A stretch of 64,000 nucleotides of DNA from an uncultured Pelagibacteraceae bacterium (GTDB taxonomy: Bacteria > Pseudomonadota > Alphaproteobacteria > Pelagibacterales > Pelagibacteraceae): the NCBI GenBank assembly GCA_902592675.1, contig CACJFJ010000001.1, positions 1-64,000 of the forward strand, written 5' to 3'. Both the position numbers and the translations under genes were made by a program. Below the pieces are notes generated by a model. It saw nothing but the letters and a program-made list of their open reading frames with translations, was not told the origin of the DNA and did not search any database. Shown here one piece after another: positions 26,188-28,890 of this stretch; the first letter of the stretch is position 1; each line of letters begins with the position of its first letter.

Positions 26188-26664
26188 ATGAATAAAGAAC
26201 CAATCACCTTAAATGGACTTAATAAACTTAAAGAAGAGCTTGTTTATTTAAAAGAAAAAAAAAGACCAGAAATAGTTAATGCGATTGCAGAAGCTAGATC
26301 ACATGGAGATCTAAAAGAAAATGCTGAATATCACGCTGCCAAAGAGGAGCAATCATATAATGAAGGTCGCATTACTGAAATTAATGATATTATTGCTAGA
26401 GCTAATGTGATTGATGTTACAAAACTTAATAATGATGGAAAAGTCATTTTTGGTTCAACTGTATTTTTAGAAAATCTAGATAGTGGAGAGAAAATAAATT
26501 ATAAAATTGTTGGCAAAGATGAGGCCGATCTTAAAAATAAATTAATATTTTTTCAATCGCCTATTGGGAAAGGATTAATTGGAAAAAATAAAAATGACCT
26601 TGTTGAAATCAGTACACCAGCTGGAATTAAAAATTTCGAAATTAAAGATGTTAAGTATATTTAG
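26188..26664 (+). CDS. greA: Transcription elongation factor GreA
   Basis: This 158-residue factor rescues backtracked RNA polymerase. It has the N-terminal coiled coil ([45 protein letters not shown]) with the acidic tip residues, then a C-terminal FKBP-like domain ([21 protein letters not shown] and PIGKGLIGK). It begins directly after hemF. Its TAG overlaps the stop of the convergent CCA-adding enzyme gene in TTAG. Confidence 0.97.
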
Positions 26665-27935
26665 CTTTTAATGATATTGTCAACTTGAGTATCTGATAAC
26701 TGAAAATTATTATTTACCCACTCCTTTTCAATAATTTTTAATTTAACTCCTAGTTGCTTGCCCTCAGGTATATTGTATTTAGAAATTAAAATTTCAGCTT
26801 TTATTGGCATAATAGGTATCTTTTTATTTTTAAAAATTTCAGACAATTCAAAAAGATCTAGGTCAATTTTTTTTGAAGTTATTATCTTAAAATTTATAAT
26901 ATCCATTACGGCTTGATTTCCATAATAATAAAAAATCTTATTTAAGTTTTGTTCTGTAAATATTTTTGAATTAATATTTTCCTTAAAAAAATTATCTATT
27001 ATCTTTATTCTTTTTCGATCTTTTTTTGAAATATTATACTTAAATATAAAATAGTCTGCATTGTCTTTGTTATCTATAACCAATAAAGATATCAAAAAAG
27101 TTAAATCAGAATTTTTTAATATTTCCCTTTTATTTGGATTTAATTTGTTAAAAAGATTTAAATTTTTAACTTCTGGAAAAATAATTAAAAATGTTTCAAG
27201 ACAAAACTTATCTTTTGACAATCTTTCAAGTGTGTTTAGTTGTATAATCTTTTTTAATTCATCTAATAATCTTTCTTTTGATAATTTTGAAACTCCACCT
27301 AAATTTTTTTTAATTTTTTTAATTACTTCAGGTTTATGTGGGTGTTTTGAATAGATCAAAAAAAATCTAAAATATCTTAATATTCTTAGATAATCCTCTT
27401 TAATCCTTTTGTCAGGATCTCCAATAAAAATTACATCACCATTTTCTAAATCAGTCTTCCCATCGTAGGGATCAAAAAGATTACCCTCAACATCTGAATA
27501 AATAGAGTTTATTGTAAAATCTCTTCTTGATGAGTCTTTTTTCCAATCATTTGAGAATCTAACTTCAGCATGTCTTCCATCTGTATTAATATCCTCCCTT
27601 AAAGAAGTAATCTCAAATTTATATTCACCTGATGTGGCTGTTATTGTTCCATGTTCTTTCCCACTTTCATAAAAGCTGATTTCATTTCTTTTTAACGCAT
27701 CACAAGTTTGCTCTGGTTTTAAATTTGTAGCTAAATCAATATCATCGTAAACTTCATTATTTATAATTTTTCTTAGACAGCCACCTACATACATAAGTTC
27801 ACTATTTGAAGAAAAAGAATTAATAGCTTTAAAAATTTTTCCTACAGGTGTTTTTTTTTTAATATCTTTGATTTTTTTACTTAGATCATCAAGATTATTT
27901 GATCTAAAAAAAATTTTATCTAAAAAATTTCTCAT
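26661..27935 (-). CDS. cca: CCA tRNA nucleotidyltransferase (poly(A) polymerase family)
   Basis: This 424-residue class II nucleotidyltransferase adds or repairs the CCA end of tRNAs. It carries [21 protein letters not shown] (the catalytic aspartates), [12 protein letters not shown], the [12 protein letters not shown] motif that selects CTP/ATP, and a helical C-terminal body. The ATG at 27935 is the only usable start. It sits just three bases after the encoded CCA end of tRNA-Gln on the same strand, so the tRNA is part of its leader. A PcnB-type poly(A) polymerase is less likely, because the genome should need this enzyme for tRNAs. Confidence 0.92.
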
Positions 27936-27938
27936 AAT

Positions 27939-28012
27939 TGGCTGGGGCGCTAGGATTCGAACCTAGGATGCAGGTACCAAAAACCCGTGCCTTACCGCTT
28001 GGCTACGCCCCA
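27939..28012 (-). tRNA. tRNA-Gln (anticodon TTG), CCA end encoded
   Basis: On the minus strand the sequence folds as a standard cloverleaf. The acceptor stem is TGGGGCG with CGCCCCA and a G discriminator. The D arm (GCC...GGC) has a short GCGGTAA-type loop. The anticodon stem CGGGT/ACCTG encloses the loop TTTTGGT, giving anticodon TTG. The T arm is CTAGG-TTCGAAT-CCTAG. The 3' CCA is encoded (27941-27939). The unpaired first base T is typical of bacterial tRNA-Gln. It lies between ispE upstream and the CCA-adding enzyme gene downstream. An 11-T run and TATATG are just upstream. Confidence 0.95.
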
Positions 28013-28044
28013 ATAATAAAATCATATAACACAAAAAAAAAAAT

Positions 28045-28890
28045 TTATATAGTTTTTGAGGCTATACACCAGTAATTTTTAAATTTTTTGTTAAACTTTT
28101 TCTTTGCCTCAAGACATTTGTGTTTTGTTTGATAATAAGCCACTAATGCTGACCCTGAACCTGTCATTCTAACAAATATTGGGTCTAATAAATTTTCTAA
28201 ATAAAATTTTATTTTTTTCAGTTTTGAATATTTAGAGAAAGCAATTTTTTCAAGGCTATTATTGGCTTTTTTTAAAAAAAACATATTAAACATTTTTTTT
28301 TGTGGTTGTTTAAAATGAGTCTTATTAAATTTTTTTACTTTTGAATATATATCTTTAGTCGCACAACCAAAGTTTGGTTTTACAATTAAGGTATGAAATT
28401 TTTTACAACCATCAAAATAACGAATATCATTTTTAGAATTTATAATACAGTTTGTTGAATATAGGCCTAAAATAACATCTGATCCAATTGATTTACAAAC
28501 GTTAAGGATCTCATTTTTATTGATTTGAATTATTTTTTTTTTGATAAAAAATTTCAAAATGCTTGCAGCATTCATTGATCCCCCGCCTAATCCTGCTTTA
28601 CTAGGTATTCTTTTAAAAATTTTTATCTTAAACTTTTCATCTCTCAGCAGTTTTTTTTTTTCTAGATTTTCTAGTAACTTAGAAACTGTATTTTTTTTTC
28701 CTATATTCTTAGAAAATTTACCAGTAAATGAAATTTTGTGTTTTTTTGATTTAATTCTTTTAATAAAGATATCATCATGAAGTAAGATAAACCCTACTAA
28801 GCTCTCAATTTTGTGTAATGATGAATTTTTACCAACTATGTTTAGTGCATAATTAATTTTTGCGTGTGATTTTATTTTATAGTACTTCAT
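28045..28890 (-). CDS. ispE: 4-diphosphocytidyl-2-C-methyl-D-erythritol kinase
   Basis: This GHMP kinase of the MEP isoprenoid pathway reads KSHAKINYALNIVGKNS at the start, the ATP loop IPSKAGLGGGSMNAAS, and MTGSGSALVAY near the C-terminus. The track's 28926 start overlaps the TPR gene. MKYYKIKSHAKINYAL at 28890 (281 aa) begins one base past the TPR stop and is family-like. It supplies precursors used by the carotenoid, ubiquinone and IspH steps encoded elsewhere in the window. An 11-base T run follows its stop before the tRNA gene. Confidence 0.95.
   Translation of the reverse strand: MKYYKIKSHAKINYALNIVGKNSSLHKIESLVGFILLHDDIFIKRIKSKKHKISFTGKFSKNIGKKNTVSKLLENLEKKKLLRDEKFKIKIFKRIPSKAGLGGGSMNAASILKFFIKKKIIQINKNEILNVCKSIGSDVILGLYSTNCIINSKNDIRYFDGCKKFHTLIVKPNFGCATKDIYSKVKKFNKTHFKQPQKKMFNMFFLKKANNSLEKIAFSKYSKLKKIKFYLENLLDPIFVRMTGSGSALVAYYQTKHKCLEAKKKFNKKFKNYWCIASKTI

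Follow-up and report, generated by a model that had tools for sequence, protein, structure and literature searches.

The window analysed, a 64,000-nucleotide stretch of contig CACJFJ010000001.1 from an uncultured Pelagibacteraceae bacterium, carries on its minus strand a tRNA-Gln gene (anticodon TTG) with an encoded GCCA at its 3' end, followed after only three bases by the start codon of a reading frame for a CCA-adding enzyme (Table 1). The ARAGORN and reading-frame coordinates confirmed as exact the tRNA-Gln-CCA, ATT and cca ATG adjacency reported in a preliminary description of this DNA. In the complete genomes of two relatives (G012 and G109), the equivalent tRNA-Gln(UUG) is the sole tRNA-Gln. 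The cca product scored 91 bits with the Pfam PolyA_pol model (PF01743) against a cut-off of 23, and residues G51 G52 and D65 I66 D67, the GG and DxD motifs of the PolyA_pol head domain, were invariant in alignment; on these sequence features the 424-aa protein qualifies as a class II CCA tRNA nucleotidyltransferase. For most of the genus's loci the tblastn matches extended from residue 1, additional in-frame start codons upstream of the catalytic VGG motif were sporadic, and the ATG at 27935 is a credible true start. Downstream, greA is convergent with cca, the two stop codons overlapping by 4 bases (26661-26664).

Table 1. Features of the tRNA-Gln and cca region, numbered from the first base of the window.
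Feature	Position	Strand	Basis
ispE, upstream neighbour of tRNA-Gln	28045..28890	-	ORF; ispE - tRNA-Gln order common to sister family
Putative extended -10 of tRNA-Gln promoter, TG-T-TATATG	28023..28031	-	By-eye comparison of upstream regions
tRNA-Gln(UUG), encoded 3' CCA	27939..28012	-	ARAGORN
Gap ATT between encoded CCA and cca start codon	27936..27938	-	Sequence; NNT conserved across genus
cca, class II tRNA nucleotidyltransferase, 424 aa, ATG at 27935	26661..27935	-	ORF; PF01743 above cut-off

The tRNA and cca genes share a strand, with neither a promoter nor a terminator between them. The sequence preceding the cca ATG consists of the conserved tRNA end plus NNT and contains no Shine-Dalgarno motif, and a promoter scan revealed no site on the cca strand for transcription starting at the ATG, the three matches recorded in the region comparing with 2.4 expected by chance. 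These results bear out the earlier proposals that no promoter or ribosome-binding site fits in the gap and that, since neither is present there, the cca mRNA must include, or be cut from, the tRNA. Across Pelagibacteraceae genes as a whole, Shine-Dalgarno motifs were found near background levels (5-16% versus 2-10% in controls), as measured on longest-ATG reading frames, which blur the true starts. Upstream of the tRNA, most relatives retain the putative extended -10 element as TGTTATAC/TATATG (TG-T-TATAYG), which is consistent with a tRNA promoter; the element went undetected in the consensus promoter scan.

PolyA_pol searches at the levels of genus, family, order and class yielded 160 loci, each of which was scanned for tRNAs. 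In 12 of the 13 family genera represented, every locus whose gene start could be read had tRNA-Gln(UUG)-CCA followed, 3-8 nt on, by an ATG; these loci include 135 distinct examples, and all 135 of these cca genes start with ATG; retention of such spacing by so many distinct loci rules out a chance adjacency. Named GTDB Pelagibacteraceae genomes had the same layout, 38 loci with a gap of 3 nt and 13 with one of 4-7 nt. The sole exception among the 13 genera was the one containing Fonsibacter (g5), in which tRNA-Gln and cca are separated by an acetyltransferase gene. The intervening reading frame in this genus (L118-L120) resembles GNAT acetyltransferases and encodes 86 aa from its first ATG; a named Fonsibacter locus (L343) is likewise without close tRNA-cca spacing.

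No tRNA was found next to cca in the sister family of the same order, where the sequence of genes is upstream ORF - NUDIX - cca, nor directly upstream of cca in the other Alphaproteobacteria sampled. An ancestral alphaproteobacterial arrangement was therefore rejected, given that the tRNA-Gln-cca pair is absent outside the family and that cca there lies behind a NUDIX gene or other neighbours. Assignment of the DNA to SAR11 was supported. The conservation across SAR11 that the preliminary description had put forward as a check held for 12 of the 13 Pelagibacteraceae genera and failed for the Fonsibacter-containing genus and the sister family: the layout is real, conserved and lineage-specific. 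The sister family has nevertheless kept the ispE - tRNA-Gln order, followed by an unrelated 183-aa gene after a spacer of 15 nt that contains AGGG, compared with 3-8 nt lacking it in Pelagibacteraceae. Because the tRNA-Gln locus persists with another gene behind it, the locus itself is old, and what changes between lineages is the gene occupying the slot behind it.

Examination of every tRNA in three family genomes, one sister-family genome (G244) and one AT-rich outgroup alphaproteobacterium placed the cca locus in a wider setting. A same-strand ATG reading frame began within 12 nt of the CCA for 7/32, 11/32 and 6/22 tRNAs of the three family genomes, all of these close pairs starting with ATG; the sister-family genome had 5 of 26 tRNAs closely trailed in this way, with spacers of 9-15 nt, and the outgroup 1 of 30. 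Within the first 14 nt past CCA, ATG was several-fold more frequent than GTA, AGT or GAT in the family, and not in the outgroup. When whole genomes were searched for a T-arm followed by CCA and, no more than 8 nt on, an ATG, the mean number of matches per genome was 8.0 for the family (66 genomes), 4.3 for the sister family (12 genomes) and 3.0 for other alphaproteobacteria of up to about 2 Mb (41 genomes), values of which only the between-group contrast is informative, as the pattern also picks up chance ATGs and the genomes are phylogenetically non-independent.

The genes so placed are functionally unrelated, and include, in addition to cca, hisS (behind tRNA-His), tig (tRNA-Leu), a pterin dehydratase gene (tRNA-Gly), NDUS4 (tRNA-Pro) and a gene for a GIY-YIG protein (tRNA-Glu). 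With several unrelated genes per genome positioned likewise, a control circuit specific to cca is disfavoured, and on comparison of these genomes the cca layout looks like an example of a tRNA punctuation that is general in Pelagibacteraceae and driven by streamlining. The spacer between tRNA-Leu(tag) and tig measures 21 nt in the sister family versus 9-12 nt in Pelagibacteraceae. Intergenic regions in Ca. P. ubique have a median length of 3 nt (PMC2704228), and a 3-nt spacer between tRNA-Gln and cca, being equal to this lineage median, needs no selection for processing.

In two loci (L205 166-1636 and L214 7495-8887), tRNA-His lies 4-5 nt ahead of hisS, so that the synthetase is apparently co-transcribed with the tRNA that it charges; the genome-wide pattern search repeatedly gave, in different genera, T-arm matches resembling tRNA-His with an ATG 4-6 nt further on.

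The 5' end of a tRNA is generated by RNase P, and release of an mRNA located downstream requires a cut at the tRNA 3' end. The preliminary description had suggested that RNase P plus 3' processing would leave a near-leaderless mRNA; of this, the 3' cut stands as the best reading, whereas RNase P can make only the 5' end of the tRNA. Folding of the uncut transcript left about 7 nt between the closed acceptor stem and the AUG, a distance at which the intact stem should, on this model, obstruct the 30S subunit, and translation would for that reason most likely follow an endonucleolytic 3' cut.

As to the nuclease, RNase E was found in all 19 Pelagibacterales genomes tested, while canonical RNase Z (TIGR02651) gave no match over the cut-off in the same number, a divergent enzyme being conceivable. 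On this basis RNase E is the likelier agent of cleavage at the tRNA 3' end. RNase Z was rejected as the cutter: its matches to TIGR02651 were all sub-cut-off, those from Pelagibacteraceae being a better fit to PhnP-like MBL models, and the match from the sister family has a hydrophobic N-terminus. That sister-family protein (L244 1102-2169) is an RNase Z-related metallo-hydrolase whose hydrophobic segment is N-terminal and whose score falls far under the RNase Z cut-off. CCA is encoded in 85 of the 86 tRNA genes of three genomes. In P. acnes, cuts occur a few nucleotides 3' of the encoded CCA (PMC3848588), and RNase E favours RN|WUU sites, in which position +2 is a uridine (PMC5222698).

The base immediately before the cca ATG (window 27936) was T in all 77 loci with a 3-nt gap. 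When base changes in the gap were mapped by parsimony on a tree of 135 distinct proteins, this position had undergone none, as against 12 and 17 at the other two, and no more than about 35% of all starts in these genomes are preceded by T; in other genera the corresponding base was A or T, never C or G. Such invariance is not accounted for by packing. Two readings fit: the residue may be the uridine at +2 in an RNase E site whose R is A76, or U(-1) may provide an extra contact with the initiator tRNA. The sequence A76-N-W-U matches nearly all loci with a 3-nt gap, and the RNase E motif can be suggested as the reason for the invariant T; it stays a suggestion because genera with A before the ATG match the motif only if cut directly at the AUG.

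The best explanation of these data, and in our judgement a probable one, is that tRNA-Gln and cca form a joint unit which a nuclease cuts to give a near-leaderless cca mRNA, as part of a general tRNA punctuation. Transcription of both genes as one unit would proceed from the tRNA promoter just downstream of ispE, so that cca is likely coupled to the promoter of an essential tRNA-Gln. The precursor would be opened endonucleolytically within or beside the 3-nt AU-rich gap, most likely by RNase E, after which RNase P and 3' exonucleases would finish the tRNA, and the other product would be a cca mRNA with a leader of 0-3 nt and an AUG start, translated as leaderless on the assumption that SAR11 ribosomes accept such short leaders. 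At roughly a fifth to a third of tRNAs, streamlining would have left only 1-12 nt between the CCA and the next start codon, and at such genes tRNA processing would stand in for a 5' untranslated region.

Passive packing alone could in principle produce much of the same picture, deletion bias having shrunk the spacers until cca lay behind tRNA-Gln by accident, with a little Cca made by read-through or from tRNAs opened by ribosomes and no defined processing product of any importance. The 3-nt lineage median, the longer spacers of the sister family at the same synteny (for both tig and tRNA-Gln), and the encoding of CCA everywhere, such that little enzyme would be needed, all accord with such an origin. 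It does not, however, explain a T that is unchanged in 77 loci beside neighbours that changed 12 and 17 times, nor the presence of the essential and highly needed hisS and tig in the same position, and an intact tRNA some 7 nt before the AUG should block the 30S subunit; we consider packing as the whole explanation unlikely, while giving it appreciable weight. A promoter for cca within tRNA-Gln or at the start of the reading frame, yielding an mRNA that is leaderless or begins internally and needs no processing, is very improbable. The weak promoter-like match at 27922-27894 is on the right strand but lies inside cca and would place the transcription start beyond the ATG, a start at the ATG itself would have as its -10 the sequence CCCCAG, part of the conserved tRNA, and, with regional matches at the number expected by chance, a promoter inside the tRNA was rejected.

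The feedback between tRNA maturation and CCA-enzyme synthesis envisaged in the preliminary description, by which the state of the tRNA 3' end would set cca expression, might seem to be favoured by the pairing of cca with a tRNA throughout one family and by the invariant T at -1 in one clade. With CCA already encoded, however, the enzyme would have no substrate in the precursor; unrelated genes have the same layout; an acetyltransferase gene intervenes in the Fonsibacter lineage, and in the sister family NUDIX-cca lies far from any tRNA. The proposal found no support and was rejected as the main reading, its probability being minimal.

The closest parallel to the favoured joint-transcript reading is the tRNA punctuation of animal mitochondria (Ojala, Montoya and Attardi 1980-81, as cited in PMC10941002), in which start codons likewise fall a few nucleotides or less past tRNA genes at several genes per genome, and in which tRNA excision makes the 5' ends of near-leaderless mRNAs, as it would here. 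Unlike mitochondria, Pelagibacteraceae are free-living, show this arrangement at no more than roughly a fifth to a third of their tRNAs, encode CCA and likely possess individual promoters; moreover, the mitochondrial 3' cutter is RNase Z, whereas in Pelagibacteraceae the canonical enzyme was not found and RNase E was. More tentatively, and as a conjecture less likely than not to hold, Pelagibacteraceae could have evolved tRNA punctuation independently of mitochondria, at some 6-11 genes per genome (hisS, tig and cca among them), with RNase E-dependent 3' processing replacing the 5' UTR to yield leaderless mRNAs and with the invariant U before the cca AUG either providing uridine +2 for RNase E or making an additional contact with the initiator tRNA.

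Among bacteria, the E. coli tRNA-tufB operon is a tRNA-mRNA dicistronic unit from which the mRNA is separated by tRNA processing, and the arrangement proposed here would resemble it in both co-transcription and mode of release. Known tRNA-mRNA operons, however, keep a spacer bearing a ribosome-binding site, whereas the Pelagibacteraceae spacers are 1-12 nt without one; a tRNA-tuf-like order, tRNA-Tyr - tRNA-Gly - 397-aa ORF with spacers of 29-43 nt, is also present here. Leaderless mRNAs of mycobacteria (PMC4633059) and P. acnes (PMC3848588) similarly have their AUG no more than 10 nt from the 5' end, as predicted for cca, and no Shine-Dalgarno sequence, but their short leaders arise at the transcription start and that of cca would arise by tRNA processing. 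A literature search found no account, for SAR11, of genes abutting tRNAs, of leaderless mRNAs or of mapped 3' processing of tRNAs; start sites of HTCC7211 are mapped in a Red Sea dRNA-seq paper (PMC5069720), and the passages of its main text consulted do not treat the tRNA-Gln/cca locus.

If tRNA processing does generate leaderless mRNAs in these organisms, a free-living bacterium would have a gene layout so far associated with mitochondria, and genome streamlining alone could yield it. SAR11 are among the most abundant cell groups in the ocean, and the question bears on how they make and translate mRNAs given median spacers of 3 nt and almost no Shine-Dalgarno signals; the tRNA-abutting genes provide a short list for direct tests of leaderless translation in SAR11.

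One Pelagibacteraceae genus (g12) differed in the enzyme itself: the CCA-adding enzyme recorded there (L124 911-1669 and L125) is of about 252 aa and is without the C-terminal part of its relatives, and the open frames for it in all six g12 genomes are of 269-282 aa, possibly representing a minimal version.
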